Of a stretch of 56,330 nt of DNA, positions 4,628 through 49,509 are shown in pieces. The stretch is from the NCBI GenBank assembly GCA_017556145.1, contig JAFZCU010000065.1, positions 1-56,330 of the forward strand, given 5' to 3'. Source of the DNA: Prevotella sp. GTDB lineage: Bacteria; Bacteroidota; Bacteroidia; Bacteroidales; Bacteroidaceae. The notes beneath the pieces are model-generated. The model was not told where the DNA came from. It searched no databases and saw nothing but the letters and a program-made list of their open reading frames with translations. Position 1 is the stretch's first letter, and each line of letters starts with the position of its first letter. A program made the position numbers and the translations under genes.

Positions 4628-6124
4628 ATGAGGTATAAGTTCATCATATTCGTAGCCGGACTTCTCTGCTCAACCATTGTAAGGGCGCAAGATGCGGGGA
4701 AAACGCATGTAACCTACGACCTGTCGACTGAAACATCGGTAGGTACGGGCGACTATACGGCTTATCAGTTGGTGACCAACCGCCATCATGTGTTGGCGAC
4801 GCGTCCGAACACGGCATATCTGAGAGGCGACCTCAACATTGCGCATGCATTGTCGAAAGACTTCACGCTCTCGGGGGCCGTGGATGTCATCGCTTCTGTG
4901 CATGCCGACCACCAGCTGTATCTGCAGCAATGCTATACTAACCTGAACTATCAGAAGACGTTTTTCTTAGAGGTTGGCAGTCGTGAGGAAAAGCCCGTAT
5001 TGCGCGATGAAAGGCTCTCAAGCGGTTCGTTCGTCAAGGGCAACAATGCCAAGCCGATTCCGCAGATACACTTCGGCACCTGTGATTTCTGGACGATTCC
5101 ATATACAAAAGACTGGTTGCAGATGAACTTCGACTTCGGCTATGGCAAACTGATGGACAGCAACTATCGTGAGGACAGATACAAGACAGCCAGCGAGGTC
5201 AATCAGATGTATACCACAGGCGCCTATTACCACCAAAAGCATCTGTATTTCCGCACCAATCCCACGAAACGTTTCTTTGTGACTGCGGGTATCCAGCACG
5301 TGGCTCAATTTGGTGGTACGAACTATAATAAGGAGGATGATACCTTCAAGAAAAAACAGGCTAATCTAAAGGCCATGTGGAATGTGGTACTCCCCTTGGG
5401 CGACAGCAACTACTACGACGATGAATCTCTGGAAGACTGGATCTATGGTAACCACCTCGGACTGATGACTGTCCAACTTGGCTGGAACATCAATCAACAG
5501 CATCAGTTGCAGGTGTATTACGACGACATCTTTGAAGACGGATCGGGCATGCGCAAGAGCAATGGCTGGGATGGTCTGTGGGGCATGGAATATAGGAACC
5601 ACGCTACTGGCAGGCAATCTGTGCGTGGGGCCGTGATGGAATTCTTCCAGACCACAAACCAGTCAGGTCCGCTGCACTGGGACGCTGGCGACCATCCAGA
5701 ACCAATTCGCAGTCAGATTACGGACAAGGTGTTTGGCGATGACAACTATTACAACCACATGTTCTATGACAGCTTTGCCCACTACGGCATGACGCCCGGC
5801 AACGCCCTCATCACCTCACCTATATATAATCAAGACGGCTACACCCGCTATCGCGACAACCGCATCAAGGCCTGGCATCTGGGCATCAACGGCGAGATTA
5901 CCGACCATTTGTCGTATCTGGTCAAGGGCTCTTATCGTGAAGGATGGGGGACTTATCAGGTTCCGCTGGCGGTGAAACATCACTCCTTCGACGCGATGGT
6001 ACAAGGAATATACGACCTTGGCCCATGGCAGTTCTGTGCCGCCTACGCTTTCGACAAAGGAAATATCTACGGTGACTGTTCAACATTCAACATCAAAATC
6101 GGTTATCATGGCAAGATTCTATAA
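4628..6124 (+). CDS. Wzi-like capsule assembly outer-membrane protein (probable)
   Basis: 498 residues with a clean signal peptide (MRYKFIIFVAGLLCSTIVRA, then QDAG). The mature part alternates aromatic and polar strands, has many Tyr/Trp/His residues, and ends in hydrophobic strand pattern typical of a beta-barrel. The architecture and motifs such as GFEYRNH-like MEYRNHATGRQS and FFQTTNQSGPLHW match what I know of the Bacteroidetes Wzi family, in which the barrel binds capsule at the cell surface. Its placement 50-odd bases behind the ABC operon and near polysaccharide genes is compatible but not proof. The upstream gap (4571-4627) is very AT-rich, without a clear -7 box. The last 17 bases overlap the next gene. 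Confidence 0.7.
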   Translation: MRYKFIIFVAGLLCSTIVRAQDAGKTHVTYDLSTETSVGTGDYTAYQLVTNRHHVLATRPNTAYLRGDLNIAHALSKDFTLSGAVDVIASVHADHQLYLQQCYTNLNYQKTFFLEVGSREEKPVLRDERLSSGSFVKGNNAKPIPQIHFGTCDFWTIPYTKDWLQMNFDFGYGKLMDSNYREDRYKTASEVNQMYTTGAYYHQKHLYFRTNPTKRFFVTAGIQHVAQFGGTNYNKEDDTFKKKQANLKAMWNVVLPLGDSNYYDDESLEDWIYGNHLGLMTVQLGWNINQQHQLQVYYDDIFEDGSGMRKSNGWDGLWGMEYRNHATGRQSVRGAVMEFFQTTNQSGPLHWDAGDHPEPIRSQITDKVFGDDNYYNHMFYDSFAHYGMTPGNALITSPIYNQDGYTRYRDNRIKAWHLGINGEITDHLSYLVKGSYREGWGTYQVPLAVKHHSFDAMVQGIYDLGPWQFCAAYAFDKGNIYGDCSTFNIKIGYHGKIL

Positions 6125-6497
6125 ACATCTCATCTCTTACCTCTTACTTCTTACCTCTTACCTCTTTATTTCCTGTCAGGAGGGTGGCGATGCCGGTGAT
6201 CTGTTAGGTCAGTGGCGGCTGACTGGCTCCGACACGAAGTACATCAGTTTTTCGGGCTCCATCACATGGATCAAAAGCCTCAACGAGAATGAACTGTATG
6301 GCAACTTCCAGCATGTGGGCGACAGTCTCTTTATACAATGCTACTCCATCAAGGGTGAGCCAGCCGACACTGCGCTGGTGGAAAACAGTTTTGGTTTCAG
6401 GCCCTTCAACAATATCCGCATGAAGATAGAAACACTGACTTCCGACCGTCTGCTGCTGCGAAAAGACAATCAGACCTGGGGTTTCGATAAGTACTAA
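6108..6497 (+). CDS. Small lipocalin-like lipoprotein
   Basis: 129 residues from ATG 6108. That start gives a perfect short signal peptide ending FISC, while the open frame further upstream lies inside the Wzi-like gene. The mature part begins with LLGQWRLTGSD and has about eight predicted strands (for example SGSITWIKS, LYGNFQHVGDSLFIQC, DRLLLRKDNQTWGF), the layout of lipocalin-like domains common in Bacteroidetes lipoproteins. Ligand unknown. The coding sequence for the hydrophobic part of the signal peptide is made of 7-bp tandem repeats (6129-6170). The 17-base overlap with the gene before it suggests coupling. Confidence 0.75.
   Translation: MARFYKHLISYLLLLTSYLFISCQEGGDAGDLLGQWRLTGSDTKYISFSGSITWIKSLNENELYGNFQHVGDSLFIQCYSIKGEPADTALVENSFGFRPFNNIRMKIETLTSDRLLLRKDNQTWGFDKY
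6129..6170 (+). repeat. Heptamer tandem repeat inside a signal peptide
   Basis: Six consecutive 7-bp units of the form CTTACCT with substitutions (first CTCATCT, last CTTTATT). They encode the Leu/Ser/Tyr-rich hydrophobic core of the lipoprotein at 6108. Confidence 0.85.
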
Positions 6498-6609: not shown

Positions 6610-7722
6610 ATGAAGAAGATGATGATGACCCTGATGGCGATGCTGACGATAGCAGTCTCTGCCACCGCAATGAGTTTCGAGCAGGCCCGTAACGAGGCTT
6701 TGTTCCTGACTGATAAAATGGCCTATGAGCTCAACCTCACCGACGAGCAATATGAGGCTTGTTATGAAATCAACCTCGATTATCTGATGGGTGTGACGGG
6801 CCGCAACGATGTATTTGGCGTCTACTGGGAGCGTCGCAACCTCGATCTGAGCTATATTCTTTTCGACTGGCAATGGAATGCCTATATCGCAGCCAGCTAT
6901 TTCTACCGTCCCCTCTACTGGGAGGCAGGCTACTGGCACTTCGGCATCTATGCCCGCTATCCGCACCGTGACTATTTCTACTTCGGACGCCCGCACTTCT
7001 ATGCCACCTATCGTGGAGGACATGCCTGGCATGTTCATGGCGGACGTGGCTACTATTATGACCGCAGAGAGCATTTCCGCGCCCCGAGAAGAGAACATGT
7101 AGGTATGCACGACCGTTGGGACCGTGGTGAATTCCAAGGCAGAAGCCACAGCTCTACCCGCGTGACGGCTCGTCCGGAAAGCAGAGGCCGCATCGAAAAC
7201 GGAGGTCGTGTGGAAAACAGAGGCCGTAATGACCGCAGCATCGGAAGACCCGAATCAGGTGCCAGAAGAACGGAGTCTGGAATCGGAGGAGGAGCCCCTA
7301 ACAGAAGCGTTGAGCGCAGCAATGAGAATAACGGCGTAAGAAGCCGTCAGGTTGAAGGCCATCGTTCCTATGGCTCTGGTAACAGCAGTTCAAGACCCAG
7401 TAGCAGCGTAGGCAGCAGCAACTCGACTCCCAGCCGCAGCTTTGGCAATAGCAGCAGTTCGCGACCCAGCAGCAGTGTTGGAAGCAGCAGTTCAAGGCCA
7501 AGTCGTAACATCGGCAGCAGCAGCCCGACTCCCAGCCGCAGTTTTGGCAATAGCAGCAGCTCGCGCCCCAGCAGCAGTGTTGGAAGCAGCCACAGTTCGG
7601 CTCCAAGTCGCAGTATAGGCAGTTCTTCCAGCCGTAGTTCATCACCCAGCCGCAGCGCAGGCAGCTCACATAGTGGAGGTGGCTCCCGTAGTGGTGGCGG
7701 ACATGTCGGAGGCCGTCGATAA
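6610..7722 (+). CDS. Secreted protein with Ser/Arg-rich low-complexity tail
   Basis: 370 residues. Start ATG 6610 gives a signal peptide (KKMMMTLMAMLTIAVSATA). The folded part (about residues 22-130) is rich in Tyr/Trp and contains ELNLTDEQYEACYEINLDY, as in small periplasmic proteins with a Spy/LTXXQ-like helical start; this is only a resemblance. From about residue 160 the protein becomes Arg/Gly rich, and residues about 255-370 are Ser-rich repeats. The unit TPSRSFGNSSSSRPSSSVGS recurs about three times. Function is unknown; a basic, disordered tail could bind surface polysaccharide or nucleic acid. Its promoter carries two perfect direct repeats, so it is likely inducible. Confidence 0.8.
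   Translation: MKKMMMTLMAMLTIAVSATAMSFEQARNEALFLTDKMAYELNLTDEQYEACYEINLDYLMGVTGRNDVFGVYWERRNLDLSYILFDWQWNAYIAASYFYRPLYWEAGYWHFGIYARYPHRDYFYFGRPHFYATYRGGHAWHVHGGRGYYYDRREHFRAPRREHVGMHDRWDRGEFQGRSHSSTRVTARPESRGRIENGGRVENRGRNDRSIGRPESGARRTESGIGGGAPNRSVERSNENNGVRSRQVEGHRSYGSGNSSSRPSSSVGSSNSTPSRSFGNSSSSRPSSSVGSSSSRPSRNIGSSSPTPSRSFGNSSSSRPSSSVGSSHSSAPSRSIGSSSSRSSSPSRSAGSSHSGGGSRSGGGHVGGRR
7376..7720 (+). repeat. Ser-rich coding repeats
   Basis: About 100-bp units containing AGCAGCAGTTCGCG-like and CCCAGCAGCAGTGTTGG blocks recur (compare 7442-7490 with 7544-7591). This long tract is prone to recombination and length change. Confidence 0.8.
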
Positions 7723-8261: not shown

Positions 8262-8269
8262 CAAAAAAA

Positions 8270-8304
8270 CTATACACTATAAACTATAAACTATAAACTT
8301 TTTG
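8270..8304 (+). repeat. Heptamer island between two divergent -7 boxes
   Basis: Units CTATACA, three CTATAAA and CTTTTTG follow each other without gaps. The island ends at the first base of TATCTTTG (8305-8312) and begins eight bases beyond the minus-strand -7 box. Confidence 0.85.
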
Positions 8305-10240: not shown

Positions 10241-10268
10241 CTCTAAACTATAAACTCTAAACTACAAA
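10241..10268 (+). repeat. Heptamer island filling the whole udk-nuclease spacer
   Basis: Four units, CTCTAAA, CTATAAA, CTCTAAA, CTACAAA, run exactly from the base after the udk start codon to the base before the nuclease stop codon. Confidence 0.88.
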
Positions 10269-11321
10269 CTACTTCTGCTCCTTTATCAAATAGACCACTG
10301 TAGGCAGGTGATCGCTATAGCCGTTGAGCCAAACACCACCGGCTTGGGTGCGCAGGGTGTTACCCTTATATTTGCCTTCCTTCTGGAAGAGATAGTCACG
10401 ACGGAAAATCTGATGCGAGAAAAGCTTCAAAGAGGAATAGTCCTTAGAATTGTCGCGGTTGAGTAAACTCGGTGAGAGGATGATCTGATCGAAAAGGTTC
10501 CAAGCACCATCATACATAAGGGTTCCTGTTCCAGATGCCAGCACATCCCACCAGGGGTTGTACATATCACCATCACCCACATCCTTGATTTTACGCTTGG
10601 CACCGAGGCACTTGGCCATTGAGGCATCCTGTGGATCGTCGTTCATGTCGCCCATTACCAGCACCTTCACATCCGGATCCTCAGCAATCAGAGAGTCCTT
10701 GACAACCTTCACCTGTGAGCCGCCTTCCTCACGATAGAACGAAGTAGCACCACGTGACGGCAGGTGGCAGACTATAATCGTCACATGCTCATCGGCTAGC
10801 GTTCCGCTCACTACGAGGAAACCACGGGTAGCCCTCAACGAGTCTTGAGGCAATTTATAAATATAAGGTACGAGCTTGACGTCGCGAATCGAAAAGAGTG
10901 CGGGATTGTAGAGCAAGGCGCAGTCGACACCACGCTGGTCCGGACCCTCGATATGCACAAACTGGAAATTCCTGGCCTTCAACGGCTCCTGATTACAGAG
11001 GTCTTCCAGACACTTGGCGTTTTCAACCTCAGATACGCCAATGGCCGCACAGCCAATCTTCGGCAGTTTGTCGGTACCCATCTCTGAAAGAACACGCGAC
11101 ATGTTACGCAACTTATTCGTATATTTCAGTCCCGTCCACTTGTTGGTGCCCTCAGGCAGATACTCATAATCATTCTTACCTGCATCGTGACAGGTATCGA
11201 ACAGATTCTCCAAATTGTAGAAACCAATACCATAGACCGAGTATTTTTTCGACTGGGCCTTTGTTTCATTCGTTCCAAGGATAAGGAACATTGTCAGCAG
11301 TAATAAATAGACTTTTTTCAT
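10269..11321 (-). CDS. Secreted endonuclease/exonuclease/phosphatase (EEP) family protein
   Basis: 350 residues with an N-terminal signal peptide (KKVYLLLLTMFLILGTNETKA). The EEP fold signatures are present: FYNLENLFDT near the start, a metal-binding Glu in VSEVENAKCLED, the VIVCHLPSRGATS segment with catalytic His, VMGDMNDDP, and a final SDHLPTVVYL. This superfamily hydrolyses phosphodiesters in DNA, RNA or small molecules. Because it is exported, an extracellular or periplasmic nuclease or phosphatase is likely. It is divergent from the TonB-dependent receptor at 11437, with a 115-bp shared control region carrying -7 boxes on both strands, which suggests a joint role. Confidence 0.9.
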   Translation of the reverse strand: MKKVYLLLLTMFLILGTNETKAQSKKYSVYGIGFYNLENLFDTCHDAGKNDYEYLPEGTNKWTGLKYTNKLRNMSRVLSEMGTDKLPKIGCAAIGVSEVENAKCLEDLCNQEPLKARNFQFVHIEGPDQRGVDCALLYNPALFSIRDVKLVPYIYKLPQDSLRATRGFLVVSGTLADEHVTIIVCHLPSRGATSFYREEGGSQVKVVKDSLIAEDPDVKVLVMGDMNDDPQDASMAKCLGAKRKIKDVGDGDMYNPWWDVLASGTGTLMYDGAWNLFDQIILSPSLLNRDNSKDYSSLKLFSHQIFRRDYLFQKEGKYKGNTLRTQAGGVWLNGYSDHLPTVVYLIKEQK

Positions 11322-21921: not shown

Positions 21922-21943
21922 AACTGCAAAAAAAACAAAATTA

Positions 21944-21978
21944 TCAATTGTCAATTATCAATTGTCAATTAATTATTG
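21944..21978 (+). repeat. Heptamer island abutting the trpB2 -7 box
   Basis: Five units alternate TCAATTG and TCAATTA and end with ATTATTG. The next base starts TACCTTTG. Confidence 0.88.
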
Positions 21979-23966: not shown

Positions 23967-26900
23967 TCAATCTGTCAGAATTGCACGACAGATTGTCAGA
24001 GCAGTTCCAACAGAAGGAACCGGAGAAATGACGATGGACCGCTTGCCGTTGGCCTCGCGGAAATTGCATTGACGGGGATTCCGAGAAACATAGTTAAGAA
24101 CCTTGCCGAAGACTTCGCTTTGGTAATAAGGACTGTCGTCATTACTGACGAAAAACAGGAACATCTTCTGCTGTTTCAGCATGATCTTCTCTATGCCAAG
24201 CTGTTTGCCATTTGCACGGAGAGGCACGACACGAATCAATTCTTCGGCCACCTCAGGAATCTCACCAAATCGATCTCTCAGTCGGCTCCGATAAGCCTCC
24301 AAAGCCGCATCAAGGTCATTGCGATTGGCCAGATTGTCGAGTTCACGGTAGAGCAACATCCGTTCTGAGTCGTTGGGAACATACTGATCAGGGAAGTACA
24401 TCTCAATGTCTGATTCGAGGGCGCAATCATCGACGAAAGCAATATGGACATATATCTTAGGAGAACCAGTATTACTAGCCCGGCTAGTCTGACTAGGATT
24501 ACTAGAATGGCTTGCAGCGGATTCGGCTGCAGAGAACTCCGGCTCTTCGTTGTACAACTCAGCCATCGCCTGGTTGAGGATCTTCTGATAGGTTTCATAG
24601 CCAAGGTCGGAGATAAAGCCCGACTGTTCGGAACCCAAAAGATTACCTGCACCACGGATGTCAAGGTCTTGCATGGCAATGTTGATACCGGAGCCGAGGT
24701 CGGAGAAATTCTCGAGGGCCTCCAGCCGACGACGCGACTCAGGATTGAGGGCAGCCAACGGCGGTGCCAACAGATAACAAAAAGCCTTACGATTGCCACG
24801 TCCCACGCGACCTCTCATCTGATGCAGATCGGAAAGTCCAAAGTTATGTGCACCGTTGATGATGATGGTATTGGCATTGGGGATATCGATTCCGTTCTCC
24901 ACAATGGTAGTGGAGAGCAATACATCGTAGTCATAATTAGAAAAGTCGAGCACAATCTTCTCCAATTCTTCAGGCTTCATCTGTCCATGTCCGATGGCGA
25001 TTCGAGCATCGGGGATGTATTTATGGATCATTTCGGCGATATGTGTCAAGTCGCTGATGCGGTTGTTGACGAAATAGACCTGACCATTGCGCGACATCTC
25101 AAAGTTGATAGCATCGGTGATAATCTCCGCGCCAAAGGTATGGATCTCCGTCTGGATAGGATAGCGGTTAGGAGGCGGTGTCTGTATAACACTCAAATCG
25201 CGAGCTCCGACGAGTGAGAACTGGAGGGTTCTTGGAATAGGTGTGGCCGACATGGTGAGCGTGTCGACATTTGACTTCATCTGGCGCAACTTTTCCTTAG
25301 TGGAAACACCAAACTTCTGTTCCTCATCGATAATAAGCAGGCCGAGATCCTTGAACTTCACCGTCTTACCGATGAGCTTATGCGTACCTATAATAACATC
25401 TATTTTGCCTTCAGCCAGGTCTTTAAGCACCTGTGTAGTCTGCTTGGCACTTTTGGCCCTCGTCAGATAGTCCACTCGGACAGGCATATCTTTTAGGCGG
25501 GAAGAGAACGTGCGGAAATGCTGATAGGCCAGGACGGTCGTCGGCACCAGCACAGCCACCTGTTTCCCGTCGCAGGCTGCCTTGAAAGCTGCACGCACCG
25601 CCACCTCGGTCTTTCCGAAGCCCACATCGCCACAGACAAGACGGTCCATCGGACGGGCGCGTTCCATATCCTGCTTCACATCGAGTGTCGCCTTCAATTG
25701 ATCAGGCGTATCCTCATAAATGAAACTGGCCTCAAGTTCATGCTGCAGATAGGAGTCGGGACCGAAAGCGAAGCCCTTTTCACGGCGACGCTTGGCATAG
25801 AGTCTGATTAGGTCGCGGGCTATGTCCTTGATATGTTTCTTGGTGCGCTCTTTCAGCCGTTCCCACTGGCCTGTACCCAATGTCGAAAGCCGTGGGGGTT
25901 CGCCATTGTCCTGAGACTTGTATTTCGAGACCTTATAGAGGGAATGGATGGAGACATAGATGCTACCGCCACCGTTGTAGAGGATCTTGATCATCTCCTG
26001 ATAGCCATCCCCTTGGGGCATACGCACCAAACCGCCGAACTTTCCTACGCCATGATCGACATGCACCACAAAGTCGCCAATCTCAAACTGCTGGATTTCC
26101 TTCAGCGTAAGGGCCATCTTACCACTACGGGCCTTGTCGCTCTTGAGGTTATATTTATGGAAGCGGTCGAATATCTGATGGTCAGTGAAGACGCATATTT
26201 TCAGATCATCATCTGCAAAACCTTCATGGAGGGTCTTATCAACGGGGGTGAACTCAATGGAGACGGTTCCAAATGAGTTCTCATATGACGACTCACTCGG
26301 AACCGTCCCCATTGAGTTTAAAATCTCCCGGAGGCGTTCATTCTGTTTCTGACTGTCAGCAAGGATATAGATCTGATAGTCTTTCAACCGGTAGTCTTCG
26401 AAAGTCTGTTTCAACAGATCGAAGTTCTTATGGAAAAGCGGCTGGACGGTGATATTGAACCGCAGCGTGGCATTAGGCTGCACTGACGGGCGATGGCCGA
26501 ACTCGATACGGCGGAACGTGTCGGCATCAGCCATGAACTGCGCACCCGTGATGAGCTGCGACTCCTTGTGCATCTGCCGTTCTATCTCCTGACGTTCCAT
26601 CTCGGTAGCACCCTCTATCATCTCAATCCTGGCTTGAGAAGAGAAGCCCTCCTGATAGGTACGGTCAATAGCATCACGCACATAATGATAGTCCTTTGTC
26701 ACCAACACCGTATCCTCAGGTACGAACGAGAGGAATGGCACCTTATCATCAACTGTCACCAATTCCGGGACAATCTCAATCTTATCCCTTTGTTCTTTCG
26801 ACAACTGGTCCTCCACCTCAAAGGTACGGATACTGTCAATGTCCTCGCCGAAAAAATCGATTCGATAGGGATATTCACAACTAAAGGAATAGATATCGAG

Positions 26901-27443
26901 AATGGAGCCACGCAGAGCAAACTGACCCGGTTCATAGACATAATCCACCTCACGGAAGCCGAATTCGCGTAAAGTCTTCTCAATATCCATAACGGCTATT
27001 GTCTGGTCTTTCTCCAAGACCAATGTCCGTTCATCGAGACTCTTCTTCGACACAACCAGTTCGGCCACAGCCTCGGGATAGGTGATAATATAGAGGTGAG
27101 AAGACATCCTTGCCATCACTTCTGTACGAAGGATCTCACTAGCAGCATCGCGCTGGGCATACTTGATGGCACGACGATAGCTACTAGGGAAGAAGAGCAC
27201 CCGCCTGTCGCCCATCAACTGCGTCAGATCGTGGTAGAAATAACCCGCCTCCTCAGCATCCTGCAGGATAAAAAGTAAGGGACTTCTGCATTTCGAGGAC
27301 AGGCTACCGAAGAGCATCGGGGCACTGGAGCCCAACAGACCCTCGAGGAAAATCGTCTTTACCGAAGATTTGCCCATCGCCTGCGCCAATGCCGACACTT
27401 GCGGCAACTTGGCATAAACTTTCTCTAATTCCTGTATATTCAT
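23967..27443 (-). CDS. mfd: Transcription-repair coupling factor
   Basis: 1158 residues. Domains in order: UvrB-like N-terminal region (to about 330), RNA-polymerase-interacting CarD-like domain starting GDFVVHVDHGVGKFGG (about 470), a SF2 translocase with GDVGFGKTEVA, DEEQKFGV, TMSATPIPRTL and GRVGRG, and the C-terminal TRCF domain. It removes RNA polymerase stalled at lesions and recruits UvrA. Between the translocase and the TRCF domain, residues about 975-994 (ASHSSNPSQTSRASNTG) are a low-complexity insert encoded by 9-bp repeats at 24474-24509. Such an insert is not part of the family. A -7 box lies on the minus strand at 27457-27464. Confidence 0.96.
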   Translation of the reverse strand: MNIQELEKVYAKLPQVSALAQAMGKSSVKTIFLEGLLGSSAPMLFGSLSSKCRSPLLFILQDAEEAGYFYHDLTQLMGDRRVLFFPSSYRRAIKYAQRDAASEILRTEVMARMSSHLYIITYPEAVAELVVSKKSLDERTLVLEKDQTIAVMDIEKTLREFGFREVDYVYEPGQFALRGSILDIYSFSCEYPYRIDFFGEDIDSIRTFEVEDQLSKEQRDKIEIVPELVTVDDKVPFLSFVPEDTVLVTKDYHYVRDAIDRTYQEGFSSQARIEMIEGATEMERQEIERQMHKESQLITGAQFMADADTFRRIEFGHRPSVQPNATLRFNITVQPLFHKNFDLLKQTFEDYRLKDYQIYILADSQKQNERLREILNSMGTVPSESSYENSFGTVSIEFTPVDKTLHEGFADDDLKICVFTDHQIFDRFHKYNLKSDKARSGKMALTLKEIQQFEIGDFVVHVDHGVGKFGGLVRMPQGDGYQEMIKILYNGGGSIYVSIHSLYKVSKYKSQDNGEPPRLSTLGTGQWERLKERTKKHIKDIARDLIRLYAKRRREKGFAFGPDSYLQHELEASFIYEDTPDQLKATLDVKQDMERARPMDRLVCGDVGFGKTEVAVRAAFKAACDGKQVAVLVPTTVLAYQHFRTFSSRLKDMPVRVDYLTRAKSAKQTTQVLKDLAEGKIDVIIGTHKLIGKTVKFKDLGLLIIDEEQKFGVSTKEKLRQMKSNVDTLTMSATPIPRTLQFSLVGARDLSVIQTPPPNRYPIQTEIHTFGAEIITDAINFEMSRNGQVYFVNNRISDLTHIAEMIHKYIPDARIAIGHGQMKPEELEKIVLDFSNYDYDVLLSTTIVENGIDIPNANTIIINGAHNFGLSDLHQMRGRVGRGNRKAFCYLLAPPLAALNPESRRRLEALENFSDLGSGINIAMQDLDIRGAGNLLGSEQSGFISDLGYETYQKILNQAMAELYNEEPEFSAAESAASHSSNPSQTSRASNTGSPKIYVHIAFVDDCALESDIEMYFPDQYVPNDSERMLLYRELDNLANRNDLDAALEAYRSRLRDRFGEIPEVAEELIRVVPLRANGKQLGIEKIMLKQQKMFLFFVSNDDSPYYQSEVFGKVLNYVSRNPRQCNFREANGKRSIVISPVPSVGTALTICRAILTD
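24474..24509 (-). repeat. In-frame 9-bp repeats NCTAGYNNN in mfd
   Basis: Four nonamers with CTAG at fixed phase (plus strand ACTAG, GCTAG, ACTAG, ACTAG every 9 bases). On the coding strand each reads NCT-AGY-NNN, giving Ser/Pro/Thr/Ala-Ser-X triplets in register with the codons. Confidence 0.9.
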
Positions 27444-37135: not shown

Positions 37136-37297
37136 CACAATTCTTATCAAACTGCAACTAAAAAACCGAAATTATTTGCACTAATTCAACATTTCCTTGA
37201 TATTTGCTAACAACTTGCACACACTTTTTGCTCAAACTGATTCATTTCCGATGGTAACATAAAAGCGTTCCGTGTCACAAGAAAAGTTAATTTTTTA

Positions 37298-37325
37298 CTT
37301 TTCACTTTTCACTTTTCACTTTTTT
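37298..37325 (+). repeat. Heptamer island upstream of the tRNA promoter
   Basis: Three CTTTTCA units and CTTTTTT, ending three bases before the -7 box at 37329. Confidence 0.88.
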
Positions 37326-38225: not shown

Positions 38226-39467
38226 CAGTATTTCTGAGAGCGTAGGATGGATGTGAACCATGTCGGCGAGTTCGCCCATAGTGGTATTCTTACACATCAA
38301 AACCGAGACTTCCTGGATGATGTCGGCAGCATGGGCGCCATAGGCATGACAGCCGAGGATAGTTCCCTCAGGGGAAGCGAAAAGTTTCAACATACCTTCT
38401 GTCTCACCCATCGCGAGGGCCTTGCCATTGGCGCGCCAGAAGGACTTCTTGCAAACATAAGGTATACCCTGCTCCTTCAATTGATCCTCTGTAGGTCCTA
38501 CACAAGCTGCTTCCGGCTCAGTGAAGATGGCAGCGGGCATGATATTGAAATCGATAGCATCGCGCTTGCCGACGATGTGGTTCACGGCTCGGACAGCTTG
38601 CATCTCTGCCGCATGGGCCAGCATCTGACGGCCATTCACATCGCCGATGGCGTATATGCCACAACCAGCAACGAAGTTCTCATCGGCGAGGATGGCACCG
38701 TTGGGGGCGAGGGTGATACCAGCGGCTTCGAGTTTCATGCCCTCTGTGCGCGGTTTACGGCCTGTGGCCATGAGGATGACATCGGCCTTAACACTATCCA
38801 TCTGTCCCTTCTTGGTCTTGAAGAACACTTCACCATCGGCAATCTGTTTCACAGCACATTGCATATTGAAGGTTATTCCCTCTTTTTCCATTTGCTTGCG
38901 CAAGCGCTTGGCGATGTCGCTGTCGAGGGCAGGCAAGCATTCCTTCAGATACTCAATGACAGTTACCTCAGAGCCAAAGCGATGGAACACAGAGGCGAAC
39001 TCCATTCCGATAACGCCAGCGCCAACGATACAGAGGCGCTTGGGAAGGGTTTCGAGTTTCAGAAGACCTGTAGAATCGACTACACGAGGATCATCGATGC
39101 CAGCAATAGGGAGCCACTTGGTTTCAGAACCTGTGGCGATAATGATATTAGCAGACGTGTAGTCTCTTACCGTATGAGCATCAATGAAAACACCCTTCTC
39201 ACGTATCAACGTGATATTGGGATGCGACAGGATACCTTCTACACCTTGACGGAGTTGAGGTACTACGGTAGACATACGTTCGCGAGCTTCATCGAAAGTC
39301 GCACTATGAACATAGACCTTAGTAGGGATACAACCAACATTCAGACACGTACCTCCCACATTTTCGTCTTCAAAAATGACGACCTTCAGGCCTTGCTTGG
39401 CTGCATATTCAGCGGCGCGGTACCCACCAGGGCCCGCACCGATGATAATGAGATCAGTTTCAGACAT
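38208..39467 (-). CDS. lpdA: Dihydrolipoyl dehydrogenase (glycine cleavage L protein)
   Basis: 419 residues from ATG 39467 (MSETDLIIIGAGPGGY). Redox-active pair in GGTCLNVGCIPTK, NAD site IVGAGVIGMEFASVF, FAD site IYAIGDVNG, and the C-terminal HIHPTLSE with the active-site His-Glu. It reoxidises the lipoyl arm of GcvH with NAD. As last gene of the gcv operon it is dedicated to this system. It is somewhat shorter than the usual 460-470 residues, but all motifs are present. Confidence 0.95.
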   Translation of the reverse strand: MSETDLIIIGAGPGGYRAAEYAAKQGLKVVIFEDENVGGTCLNVGCIPTKVYVHSATFDEARERMSTVVPQLRQGVEGILSHPNITLIREKGVFIDAHTVRDYTSANIIIATGSETKWLPIAGIDDPRVVDSTGLLKLETLPKRLCIVGAGVIGMEFASVFHRFGSEVTVIEYLKECLPALDSDIAKRLRKQMEKEGITFNMQCAVKQIADGEVFFKTKKGQMDSVKADVILMATGRKPRTEGMKLEAAGITLAPNGAILADENFVAGCGIYAIGDVNGRQMLAHAAEMQAVRAVNHIVGKRDAIDFNIMPAAIFTEPEAACVGPTEDQLKEQGIPYVCKKSFWRANGKALAMGETEGMLKLFASPEGTILGCHAYGAHAADIIQEVSVLMCKNTTMGELADMVHIHPTLSEILKNAVD

Positions 39468-39500
39468 TAAACATGAAAGATTAAACATTAAACATTTTCT
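39466..39500 (+). repeat. Heptamer island at the lpdA-gcvPB junction
   Basis: ATTAAAC, ATGAAAG, two ATTAAAC and ATTTTCT in a row; covers the 20-bp spacer and the last codons of gcvPB. Confidence 0.82.
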
Positions 39501-40897
39501 GCCTGAAGTTGGCGGAAAGTCGTTACGGGGTGTTTGGCGGCCAGGACATCATCGACACGTCCGATGGGCGTATCGTGAGGTGCCGACTTCACCAGTTCCG
39601 GATCATTCTTCGCCTCCTCGGCAATCTGACGCATCACGGCAATAAAGCCATCGAGCGTCTCCTTCGATTCATTCTCCGTAGGCTCAATCATAAGAGACTC
39701 ATGGAAGAGCAATGGGAAGTAGATAGTAGGCGCATGATAGCCGTAGTCGAGCAGACGCTTGGCCACATCCATCGTAGTGACACCAGTAGACTTATCCTTC
39801 AGACCATCGAAAACAAACTCATGACAGCACAGACCATCAATAGGCAGTTCATAGACATCCTTCAGCGACTCCTTGATATAGTTGGCATTCAATGTGGCCA
39901 GAGGTCCCACCAATTTGATGTTCTCACGACCCAGTGAACTAATATAGGCAAAAGCACGCATCATCACGGCATAATTGCCTTGATAGGGCGACACGAAGGG
40001 GAAGAACTCCTGTAAGCCTTCACGCACTCCTACAGGACCAGCGCCAGGACCACCGCCACCATGAGGCGTCGAGAAGGTCTTGTGCAGGTTGATATGCATC
40101 ACGTCGAAGCCCATATCACCAGGACGACAAGCGCCCAACATGGGATTTAGGTTGGCACCGTCGTAATACATCAGACCGCCACAATCATGGATGAGTTTCG
40201 CGATAGCAGGGATGCTTGTCTCGAAAAGTCCGAGGGTATTCGGATTTGTCATCATCATGGCGGCGATGTTTGGGCCTTCCAGTCCTATTAGTCTTTCCAA
40301 ATCAACCAGGTCTACCAGACCATCTGCACTTGACTTTACCTCGATAATCTCCAGACCACAGACAGCTGCTGAGGCAGGATTAGTGCCATGGGCCGAATCA
40401 GGCACGATGACCTTCTTGCGCAGCATATCACCACGCGAGAGATGATAATTGTCGATGGTCATAAGGCCAGTGAGCTCACCATGGGCACCAGCGTATGGCT
40501 TGAATGTGAAATGCGCCAGACCCGTGAGGGCACAAAGCGCATTCTCGAGCAGGATGACGAGTGCTTTGGCACCTAAAGCAGTATGCTCAGGCTGTAGGGG
40601 ATGAAGGTTCTGGAACTGTGGCAGAGCTGCCACTTCCTCATTAATCTTCGGATTGTACTTCATCGTACAAGAACCAAGGGGGTAGAAGCCCGTATCGACA
40701 CCAAAGTTATTATTAGAAAGGTTCGTATAGTGACGCACCACTGTCAGCTCATCGCACTCAGGCAGCGCAGCTTCCTCTAAACGGCACAATTCCCTGGGAA
40801 TCTGATAATCGCCAAAATTATTCCTTGGCAGGCTGTAGCCCTTACGTCCTTTTTTCGAGCATTCGAAAATCAGGTTTCCGTATAATCGATTATTCAT
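39488..40897 (-). CDS. gcvPB: Glycine dehydrogenase (decarboxylating) subunit 2
   Basis: 469 residues, the PLP-bearing half of split P protein. PLP Lys is in NLHKTFSTPHGGGGPG, with YYDGANLNP and SAHGTNPAS before it. Together with GcvPA it decarboxylates glycine and passes the aminomethyl group to lipoyl-GcvH. The start overlaps the gcvPA stop by four bases. Its last codons lie in a heptamer island. Confidence 0.96.
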   Translation of the reverse strand: MNNRLYGNLIFECSKKGRKGYSLPRNNFGDYQIPRELCRLEEAALPECDELTVVRHYTNLSNNNFGVDTGFYPLGSCTMKYNPKINEEVAALPQFQNLHPLQPEHTALGAKALVILLENALCALTGLAHFTFKPYAGAHGELTGLMTIDNYHLSRGDMLRKKVIVPDSAHGTNPASAAVCGLEIIEVKSSADGLVDLVDLERLIGLEGPNIAAMMMTNPNTLGLFETSIPAIAKLIHDCGGLMYYDGANLNPMLGACRPGDMGFDVMHINLHKTFSTPHGGGGPGAGPVGVREGLQEFFPFVSPYQGNYAVMMRAFAYISSLGRENIKLVGPLATLNANYIKESLKDVYELPIDGLCCHEFVFDGLKDKSTGVTTMDVAKRLLDYGYHAPTIYFPLLFHESLMIEPTENESKETLDGFIAVMRQIAEEAKNDPELVKSAPHDTPIGRVDDVLAAKHPVTTFRQLQAENV

Positions 40898-42207: not shown

Positions 42208-42241
42208 CAATTGATAATTGAAAATTTATAATTGATAATTA
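42207..42241 (+). repeat. Heptamer island between gcvPA and gcvH
   Basis: TCAATTG, ATAATTG, AAAATTT, ATAATTG, ATAATTA: five 7-bp units covering the whole 31-bp spacer plus the two adjoining codons. Confidence 0.8.
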
Positions 42242-47471: not shown

Positions 47472-47509
47472 TATTTGTCTTTTATTTGCCTTTTCTTGAT
47501 TTTTGCGTG

Positions 47510-47517
47510 CAAAATTA
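47510..47517 (-). promoter_or_regulatory. -7 box of panE
   Basis: TAATTTTG on the minus strand, 38 bases before the ATG. Confidence 0.5.
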
Positions 47518-47560
47518 CAAAAATTTTTTAATTTTTACTTCGTAATTCTCATTTTATTTG

Positions 47561-47568
47561 TATCTTTG
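47561..47568 (+). promoter_or_regulatory. -7 box of the dxs-trkA-trkH-manA operon
   Basis: TATCTTTG; the transcript would start near 47575, after the distal in-frame start at 47503, which is therefore not used. Confidence 0.65.
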
Positions 47569-47592
47569 CAAAGTTTATACAACATTTATGCT

Positions 47593-49509
47593 GTGGGACA
47601 AGAAGAATTAAGACTTTTAAGCAAAATACAATATCCGAAAGACTTGCGCGAACTGAAGGTGGATGAACTGCCTCAGGTATGCGACGAATTACGACAAGAC
47701 ATCGTACAAGAACTCTCCGTCAATCCCGGACATTTGGCTTCGAGTCTTGGCGTGGCAGAAATTACGGTAGCCCTGCATTATGTCTTCAACACCCCAGAAG
47801 ACCGCATCGTATGGGACGTGGGCCATCAGGCATACGGCCACAAAATCCTCACAGGACGTCGCGAACAGTTCTGCACCAATCGTAAGTTAGACGGAATCAG
47901 GCCCTTCCCATCCCCAACAGAGAGTGAATACGACACCTTTGCCTGCGGACATGCCTCCAACTCCATCTCAGCAGCGCTGGGTATGGCTATCGCTGCCAAG
48001 CTGGAAGGCAAGAAGCGTCATGTAGTGGCTGTTATAGGCGATGGTGCAATGAGTGGAGGCTTGGCATTCGAAGGTTTGAACAATGTATCATCCTCACCCA
48101 ACGACTTGCTCATCATCCTCAACGACAATAATATGTCGATTGACCGCAGTGTAGGGGGCATGAAGCAGTATCTGCTGAATCTCAGCACCAACGAGACCTA
48201 CAACGCCATCAAGTTCAAGACCAACAATTGGTTGTACAGGAAAGGACTGATGAACGATGCCAGGAAAAACGGTCTGCAGCGCCTTGCCAATGCCTTCAAG
48301 AGTGCCATTGCCCATCAGCAGAATGTCTTCGAAGGCATGAACATACGATACTTCGGTCCCTATGACGGTCATGATGTCAAGGAACTCGTACGCATACTCA
48401 GACAGATCAAAGATATGAAAGGTCCAAAGCTGTTGCACCTGCACACCCAGAAAGGTCACGGCTATGCCCCTGCTGAGAAGGATGTTACCATCTGGCATGC
48501 GCCAGGTAAGTTTGACCCTGAGACAGGCGAGCGTATTGTAGACAAGGATCCGTCGAAACCCCAGAAATATCAGGATGTATTTGGCCACACTCTTTTGGAA
48601 CTGGCCCAGCAGAATCCCAGAATCGTTGGCGTCACGCCGGCCATGCCCAGCGGCTGTTCGATGAACATCATGATGAAGGAGATGCCAGAACGCACCTTCG
48701 ACGTCGGCATTGCCGAAGGTCATGCGGTGACCTTCTCTGGCGGTATGGCCAAAGACGGACTGCTGCCGTTCTGTAATATCTACAGCGCCTTTGCCCAGCG
48801 TGCCTTCGACAATATCATCCACGATGTAGCACTTCTGAACCTTCATGTGGTCTTCTGTTTCGACCGTGCAGGACTGGTGGGCGAAGACGGTCCCACCCAT
48901 CATGGTGCCTTCGACCTCGCAGCCTTACGCCCCATTCCGAATCTGACCATCTCATCGCCTATGGACGAGCACGAGCTGCGCAGACTGATGTACACCGCCC
49001 AGTTACCTGACAAGGGGCCGTTTGTAATCCGCTATCCGCGAGGCGGCGGTGTTCTCGTAGACTGGCGCTGTCCGCTTGAAGAGATCAAGGTTGGTACTGG
49101 CCGCAAGCTGCGTGACGGCAGTGATGTGGCTGTGCTGAGCATCGGGCCTATTGGTAACGATGTGGCAGAAGCTATCGCCAGTTTATCTAGCCAATCTAGC
49201 CAGGCTAGTGAGGCTAGTATTCCTAGTGCCGCTCATTACGACATGCGTTTCCTCAAGCCCATCGACGAGACCATCTTGCAGGAAGTGGCAGAGAAATTCA
49301 ACCGCATCGTCACCGTCGAGAACGGCGTTAAGACAGGCGGTCTTGGCTCTGCTATCATAGAATGGATGAACGATCACGGCTACCATCCGGAGATTATCCG
49401 TCTCGGATTGCCAGATACCCAGTTCGTGGAGCATGGCACCGTGAAAGAACTCCAGCATATTGTAGGCCTTGACAAGGAAGCCATCATCAAAGCAATAAAA
49501 GGGATATGA
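47593..49509 (+). CDS. dxs: 1-deoxy-D-xylulose-5-phosphate synthase
   Basis: 638 residues if started at GTG 47593, a normal length. [37 protein letters not shown], thiamine-diphosphate site GDGAMSGG with NDNNMSI, catalytic EGHAVTF, and PFVIRYPRG are intact. It makes DXP from pyruvate and glyceraldehyde 3-phosphate for isoprenoids. An ATG five bases before the GTG opens a seven-codon frame in another phase. Residues 532-546 ([15 protein letters not shown]) are encoded by 9-bp repeats at 49186-49230, inside the C-terminal domain. Confidence 0.94.
49186..49230 (+). repeat. In-frame 9-bp repeats NCTAGYNNN in dxs
   Basis: Five nonamers with TCTAG, TCTAG, GCTAG, GCTAG and CCTAG every 9 bases, in codon phase NCT-AGY-NNN. 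Same unit and same phase as in mfd. Confidence 0.92.

Follow-up and report, generated by a model that had tools for sequence, protein, structure and literature searches.

The CTAG repeats within the mfd and dxs genes of the window (the whole stretch of 56,330 nucleotides that was analysed) are read here as dispersed members of a two-part repeat system resembling REPtrons, a reading to which we assign a probability of about 0.6. The partner of the arrays is probably a small gene encoding a four-helix-bundle protein, which, like the sibling motif families, is located outside the window. The first part of the proposed system would be an array in which a fixed core occurs a few to ~15 times, rarely more often, at a fixed period and with variable spacers, the core and period being CTAG and 9 bp in the system represented in mfd and dxs. 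The second part would be a gene for an S23-family protein of the TIGR04258 type with a C-terminal suffix domain, adjoined by arrays of its own motif.

CTAG arrays in the window and in other genomes

The two arrays and the genes that contain them are as follows.

23967..27443, minus strand: mfd, transcription-repair coupling factor (NCBIfam TIGR00580)
24474..24509, minus strand: CTAG-N5 array of four intact units within mfd
47503..49509, plus strand: dxs, 1-deoxy-D-xylulose-5-phosphate synthase (NCBIfam TIGR00204)
49186..49230, plus strand: CTAG-N5 array of five intact units within dxs, at a site of variable length in the genus

The CTAG tetramers are located at positions 24475, 24484, 24493, and 24502 in mfd (spanning 24475-24505) and at positions 49187, 49196, 49205, 49214, and 49223 in dxs (spanning 49187-49226); the four and five nonamers of the original prediction are thus present, with exact 9-bp spacing in both genes. 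Both arrays also read NCT-AGY-NNN on the coding strand, as had been described, the mfd array being TCT AGT AAT CCT AGT CAG ACT AGC CGG GCT AGT AAT. The claimed rarity of CTAG was confirmed: the window has 29 copies, about a fifth of the ~150 expected from dinucleotide shuffles and also fewer than the 86.8 of a third-order estimate. Nine of these copies belong to the two arrays. Wherever two CTAGs of the window are ≤40 bp apart, their spacing is a multiple of 9 bp (9 bp seven times, 18 bp five times, 27 bp three times, and 36 bp once), and the seven pairs at a distance of 9 bp compare with a maximum of two in 100,000 random placements of 29 sites.

The genome-wide search for CTAG at 9-bp spacing that had been suggested as a check revealed further arrays. 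The pattern CTAG-N5-CTAG-N5-CTAG was matched 24 times per strand in the source assembly (3.46 Mb in 242 contigs, 82.7% complete) versus five times for the reversed control, with matches on contigs C28, C89, C100, C106, C132, C148, and C186 and on the window contig, C199. Among the CTAG pairs listed in a variable-gap search, the 9-bp distance strongly predominates over other short ones, and some 10-bp and degenerate 18-bp spacings are also present. A scan for four cores in one genome per species matched at least 118 stretches, 18 of which were set aside as belonging to other phyla by their titles; the remainder have titles that are Bacteroidales, Bacteroidetes, or unspecific. The distribution among gut Bacteroidales is patchy: 41 of the 151 genomes of the family sample contain a match, and of the 10 genomes of the source genus, three yielded 24, 2, and 76 triple matches and seven yielded none. 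In viral contigs, the fourfold CTAG pattern was found in at least 120 scattered stretches, which were counted for all hosts together and set aside. A 39-core CTAG array with a 9-bp period was observed at 5528-5900 of a record titled Verrucomicrobia (L072; UBA3783), possibly representing a separate origin.

The common codon phase of the mfd and dxs arrays proved to be incidental, as the 148 arrays read divide into 77 with the phase NCT-AGN and 71 with CTA-GNN (the phase was taken as the longest stop-free frame, which has little meaning for intergenic arrays). The third phase generates an in-frame TAG stop. Arrays in genes are read as Ser/Arg or Leu, Leu-phase examples in the source genome being the N-terminus KRILVSLVCLVSLANLT (L004) and an array in ileS (L006), and arrays may be tolerated inside genes because a 9-bp unit preserves the reading frame. 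Among 128 Bacteroidales arrays (including those of the source genome), 67 are intergenic, 29 are gene-interior, 12 are near gene ends, and 20 lack a called gene on one side, whereas ~9% of random positions in the same loci are intergenic and ~69% gene-interior, according to gene calls made by a greedy ORF picker. The intergenic arrays lie between tandem (50), convergent (13), or divergent (4) genes.

In the 123 arrays with four or more cores, 693 cores in register are intact and 12 are broken, although detection of the arrays through their cores favours intact ones; the array borders are sharp. Spacers are 0.55 identical between neighbours versus 0.32 between different arrays, and the units are therefore not alike throughout, as those of a minisatellite would be. 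Some arrays have 8-bp units. In the nearest relative of the source genome (G180), 56 of 97 spacers are distinct versus a null mean of 76.7, indicating that spacer words recur between arrays; ATTGG was found in seven and CCCGG in six unrelated arrays, beyond a column-shuffle null. Such recurrence was not seen in the source genome (28 distinct spacers of 36; null mean 31.7).

Several other properties were considered and set aside. Adjacent spacers are reverse-complementary at 0.342 versus 0.326 by chance, and hairpin formation was rejected as a general cause; the folding z values of the four arrays folded were -0.74 in mfd (no folding beyond shuffles), -2.12 in dxs, and -8.78 and -4.29 in Prevotella nigrescens. 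An idea involving the RNA strand was also dropped: gene-oriented spacers are A-rich, but units have no clear asymmetry. CTAG avoidance as a marker of array-bearing genomes showed no clear link and is even relaxed in G157.

A TIGR04258 gene and its own motifs

Clustering of the array-adjacent genes identified one small gene in five species (source contig C28, L054, L056, L067, and L094). At L067 and L094 it has arrays on both sides, and the source copy on C28 ends ~17 bp before a seven-core array. The largest of the other recurrent array-flanking clusters, consisting of ABC-ATPase genes at 10 loci, is put down to the size of that family; the smaller ones contain long enzymes, some of them representing same-site arrays. 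All four proteins scanned exceeded the cut-offs for TIGR04258 (four helix bundle suffix domain) and TIGR02436 (four helix bundle), whereas Pfam PF05635 (23S_rRNA_IVP) remained under the cut-off in all four, and no transposase model was found among the NCBIfam and Pfam matches of these proteins.

The co-occurrence of gene and arrays was then tested, following the guess made from the five species. TIGR04258 was found in 43 of the 151 family genomes (41 over and 2 under the curated cut-off), with 29 genomes containing both gene and array, 12 the array only, 14 the gene only, and 96 neither (Fisher p=1.4e-11; 3.6e-11 without the source genome). The corresponding numbers for genomes that are ≥90% complete are 16, 6, 9, and 75 (p=2.2e-8), and among such genomes with four or more matches, 12 of 13 possess the gene, one of them by a weak partial match. 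In an order sample of 247 genomes, 30 contain the gene, 16 contain arrays, and 8 contain both (8/8/22/209; p=5e-4 without the source genome and 2e-3 without G247 as well). Because the genomes are related, these p-values overstate independence; the association of gene and arrays is nevertheless well supported. In the order sample, the array is located ~150-450 bp from the domain match in G288, G391, and G417, while the arrays of G247 (both) and of G296 and G345 (array only) each consist of one pure tandem repeat, and a further four genomes with the array only yielded just one match.

Within the source genus, the gene was detected in G157 (113 matches), G204 (55), and G186 (5) and was absent from G163 (0), G170 (0), G168 (7), and G180 (55). 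Array-positive genomes without the gene amount to 12 of 41 in the family sample and 8 of 16 in the order sample. No gene match was obtained in several genomes that are rich in arrays, namely G395 (38 matches, 99% complete), G065 (106, 81%), and G180 (55, 83%), as well as G044, G019, G143, and G115; G395 is a real exception to the gene-array pairing. CTAG triples are missing from 14 of the 43 gene-positive genomes, and in the flanks of the TIGR04258 genes of six of these, five bear another motif, one weakly.

The cores flanking TIGR04258 genes include CTAG with a 9-bp period, CCTAGG (10 bp), CTATAG, and TCNGA (9 bp), and further cores of the TCCGG, ATGGG/CCCAT, and TTAA types. A flanking array is present on at least one side of 33 of the 43 TIGR04258 genes versus 48 of 230 control genes, and on both sides of 13 versus 6, with longer flank windows used for the TIGR04258 genes than for the controls; the remaining 10 TIGR04258 genes have no flanking array by the same score. 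When motif labels, assigned by simple pattern counts with 7 of 45 left as none, were placed on a tree of the 45 proteins, 15 changes were required versus a shuffled mean of 27.7, and none of 200 shuffles was as low. CTAGG triples with a 10-bp period occur in 19 of the 151 genomes, 15 of which have the gene (p=1.4e-6), and the reversed control gave 0 in all genomes listed. The pairing of protein clade and motif is the most secure step of the analysis.

The source genome contains a second TIGR04258 gene, on contig C105, which is flanked by TCNGA arrays with a 9-bp period. TCNGA triples number 39 in 124 kb of source stretches (most of which are centred on CTAG arrays and do not form a random sample), some of them beside the C105 gene; elsewhere, 2 were found in 150 kb of G180, the 306 kb of stretches from other members of the genus contain none, and the reversed control gave 0. 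Dispersed TCNGA triples in the source genome were identified at L199, L201, and L203 and in ileS (L210, SEKSEFSEFSEFSEK). The ileS gene at L210 also carries a CTAG array (2684-2714) and thus bears the motifs of both resident TIGR04258 genes.

In a named isolate, P. nigrescens FDAARGOS_1486 (NZ_CP082843.1), the gene for WP_004367454.1, annotated as a four helix bundle suffix domain-containing protein, has a four-core array 47 bp downstream. A second, dispersed array lies between convergent genes and folds as a 20-bp hairpin (z -8.8). CTAG is very rare in this genome (33 copies in the 212.6 kb examined of 567.8 kb), and 8 of the 33 are in these two arrays. Screening of neighbouring genes for a transposase covered nine annotated P. 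nigrescens genes. S23-suffix relatives were not found in phage records; one was found in plasmid records (P. nigrescens), and a weak one in a viral contig, near a TCGGAC array with a 9-bp period.

An AlphaFold model built from six relatives is all helical (pLDDT 81.9, pTM 0.66). In a Foldseek search, the S23 proteins 2gsc and 2rld rank first, and their chains account for the majority of the ten best PDB matches; their probabilities reach 1.00 but their E values are 0.035-0.44, and none of the 526 matches has E ≤0.001. With E values of 0.035 or worse, this support for an S23 fold is weak. A profile search placed 2gsc third at E 0.35, in a list of chance-level hits. By its profile (TIGR02436 in 4 of 4) and predicted fold, the partner belongs to the S23/four-helix-bundle family.

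Shorter members of this family appear to have arrays of shorter period. Three TIGR02436-only genes were found in the source genome (C133, C62, and C124), with 7-bp arrays close to each. Of 31 short S23 loci, 15 were dropped (the pick by reading frame or length failed, or the locus was too short); the 16 usable ones have arrays on both sides in 10 cases and on at least one side in 14, with inverted copies in the two flanks at or over the null 95th percentile at 12 loci and direct copies at 4. In 116 kb of source stretches, 14 copies of the C62 unit AAACTNTAAACT were counted, including those in two arrays of the window:

8267..8299, plus strand: 7-bp array AAACTAT, with the unit found in the inverted flanks of the S23-family gene (G000:C62, L406)
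10241..10271, plus strand: 7-bp array TAAACTA/CTCTAAA, of the same class as the AAACTAT array

The same unit was found twice in 150 kb of G180 and twice in 306 kb of other genus stretches. The corresponding counts are 2, 0, and 0 for the C133 unit and 0, 3, and 10 for the C124 unit ATTGANCATTGA, which is not enriched in the source, so that only the C62 unit clearly fits. Other 7-bp arrays of ~33 bp with different units are present in the window at 6134-6166, 21939-21971, 37292-37323, 39464-39496, and 42209-42240, mostly near ORF borders. A TAnnTTTG-like box, resembling a promoter motif, directly follows the arrays at 8267, 21939, and 37292. A longer tandem repeat at 7383-7590 of the window, with periods of 33, 69, and 102 bp, is unrelated to CTAG.

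Orthologous sites and alternative explanations

The comparison with close relatives that had been suggested as a check was made for dxs, on which the absence of an array in relatives rests. A dxs match was obtained in 58 of 60 genus genomes; 30 loci were retrieved and 29 gave a readable site, the array being present in only two of these, in the source genome and its nearest relative, G180. In the next nearest relative, G163, dxs has no insert. The length of the site varies among relatives, which agrees with the proposed flexible joint for dxs, the only one of the two genes checked in this respect. Between the source genome and G180, the CTAG letters of the dxs array persist and the spacers differ. 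The 55 triple matches of G180 fall into 24 arrays, all of which were included in the comparison, and few array sites are common to the two genomes: dxs, uvrA (L022, L194), and an ABC-F gene, in which same-site arrays were found in the source genome (L211), in G180 (L192), and at L038. Same-site arrays were also found in argS (L178, L187).

A further site is in gcvPB:

40279..40318, minus strand: site in gcvPB at which G180 and L036 carry a CTAG array (orthologue comparison)

G180 and L036 have CTAG at five identical positions with diverged spacers, whereas the source genome has CTGG, CTGG, TTGG, CTAA, and CTGG at these positions, a pattern that we read as a putative decayed array from its sequence. 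In five outgroup genomes, gcvPB is of equal length and has no array, suggesting that the array arose without a change in length, which simple insertion does not explain. Of all the observations, this appearance in place is the most difficult to reconcile with simple insertion, and it leaves a model of operator selection or conversion open. In the orthologous array pairs of gcvPB, argS, and dxs, agreement is 58 of 60 letters for the cores and 31 of 60 for the spacers; the three pairs were selected for having an array in each member, a choice biased in favour of the core, and the source gcvPB (0 of 5 cores intact) is a contrary case. At one intergenic gap, a CTAG array in G180 (C137:56796) corresponds to an AATTGAY-like 7-bp array in G172 (L350) and to a gap ~26 bp shorter in G163 (L334), so that array families seem to replace each other at one site.

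In one alternative, the partner protein serves the host as a DNA-binding factor, and CTAG boxes are assembled by selection at many loci because they are useful in regulation, termination, or nucleoid order; MetJ boxes and the centromere arrays of RHH proteins are the comparison systems. The retention of the core while spacers vary, the gcvPB array without an indel, the hairpin between convergent genes in P. nigrescens, and the 7-bp arrays that end just before promoter-like boxes are all consistent with such operators. The patchiness within one genus, the few sites that the source genome and G180 have in common, the location of arrays inside housekeeping genes, and the presence of several motif families per genome speak against them, and we consider this explanation unlikely.

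The gcvPB array and the fixed core amid variable spacers can also be accommodated if a reverse transcriptase cooperates with the S23-family protein and cDNA writes the arrays. The model is Avd, an accessory protein of diversity-generating retroelements that works with reverse transcriptase and whose four-helix-bundle family, related to S23, is shared by the partner protein. The predicted fold, closest to S23 structures, is in line with this idea, but there is no reverse transcriptase among the nine annotated genes around the P. nigrescens gene, and the idea appears improbable.

Plain slippage of 9-bp units, with a coincidental partner gene, would explain the near-identical units of some arrays (G086 and G102; G247, G296, and G345) and the resemblance of adjacent spacers beyond chance. 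A neutral minisatellite is nevertheless disfavoured, and very improbable in our judgement, in view of the small number of broken cores (12 of 705) despite diverging spacers, the same core at unrelated loci and in unrelated species, and the link to one gene family. Selection acting on the protein for linkers rich in Ser or Leu, including the deliberate Ser-rich linker of the original prediction, suits the length-variable dxs site and the Ser and Leu runs encoded. The intergenic position of 67 of 128 arrays refutes it as a general explanation, however, and it is further contradicted by the retention of synonymous core letters, the use of both codon phases, and the Arg runs also encoded.

Relation to known systems and proposed model

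REP/RAYT systems, as far as described in the available text of PMC8266576, consist of short repeats scattered over the genome with a partner gene beside them, and different types have their own protein. The present system resembles these REPtrons in its dispersed repeats and in a partner gene adjoining its own repeats (33 of 43 TIGR04258 genes). It differs in that the TIGR04258 partner is a four-helix-bundle protein, whereas RAYT is a Y1/HUH transposase; in that REPs are GTAG-tagged palindromes of 20-40 nt, whereas the units here are CTAG-N5 in a periodic array with a free spacer; and in that CTAG arrays also sit in frame inside genes. By analogy, the system would work like a REPtron without being one, as the four partner proteins scanned match no transposase model and the units are not GTAG palindromes.

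In Coxiella, according to the portion of PMC4990558 consulted, the intervening sequence (IVS) of the 23S rRNA gene has tandem heptameric repeats just before the start codon of S23p and is called a selfish element; S23p is described there as having no known function, and that portion mentions no dispersed arrays elsewhere in the genome. The protein family is shared, and the short S23 genes with inverted flanking repeats (12 of 16 loci) resemble the ends of an IVS. IVSs lie in 23S rRNA genes, whereas the TIGR04258 gene of P. nigrescens, at that one locus, lies between protein genes. A MITE with a minisatellite has been reported in Porphyromonas gingivalis (PMC4596501, partial text). It is likened here by description only, as a case of Bacteroidales tandem repeats tied to small mobile DNA. 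We know of no S23 partner for this MITE.

As to binding, how the arrays spread, what they do, and host benefit, we infer the following. Each protein clade would have its own core and period, shorter S23 proteins being paired with 7-8-bp arrays, and the partner protein would bind its own motif as an oligomer. Arrays may spread and persist only while the protein is present, as REPs do with RAYT, and would decay by point mutation after loss of the partner. Inside genes, they may survive thanks to a period divisible by three and a core that is readable as either NCT-AGN or CTA-GNN. The suggestion of a selfish or templated repeat kept in frame stands in that the repeats act at the DNA level and are probably selfish or maintained, and it now extends to further arrays genome-wide and in other Bacteroidales.

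In its general form, the proposal is that S23-family proteins are sequence-specific partners of scattered short-period arrays, each clade spreading or maintaining its own core and period (CTAG/9, CCTAGG/10, TCNGA/9, and 7-8-bp arrays) and even replacing parts of genes in frame, which would make the system a counterpart of the REPtron that lacks a transposase; we favour this wider statement by a little over even odds. In the part of the literature covered, no link of S23/TIGR04258 genes to dispersed arrays was found. If true, the proposal would give a role to S23/four-helix-bundle proteins, which have long been without a function, would account for many of the short tandem repeats, a large class, that lie within Bacteroidales genes or separate them, and would describe a repeat system whose spread may require no recognised transposase. 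It would also call for caution, as in-frame Ser- or Leu-rich inserts in essential enzymes of these bacteria can be repeat DNA and not adaptation, and the pairing of motif and protein makes the question directly testable by binding.
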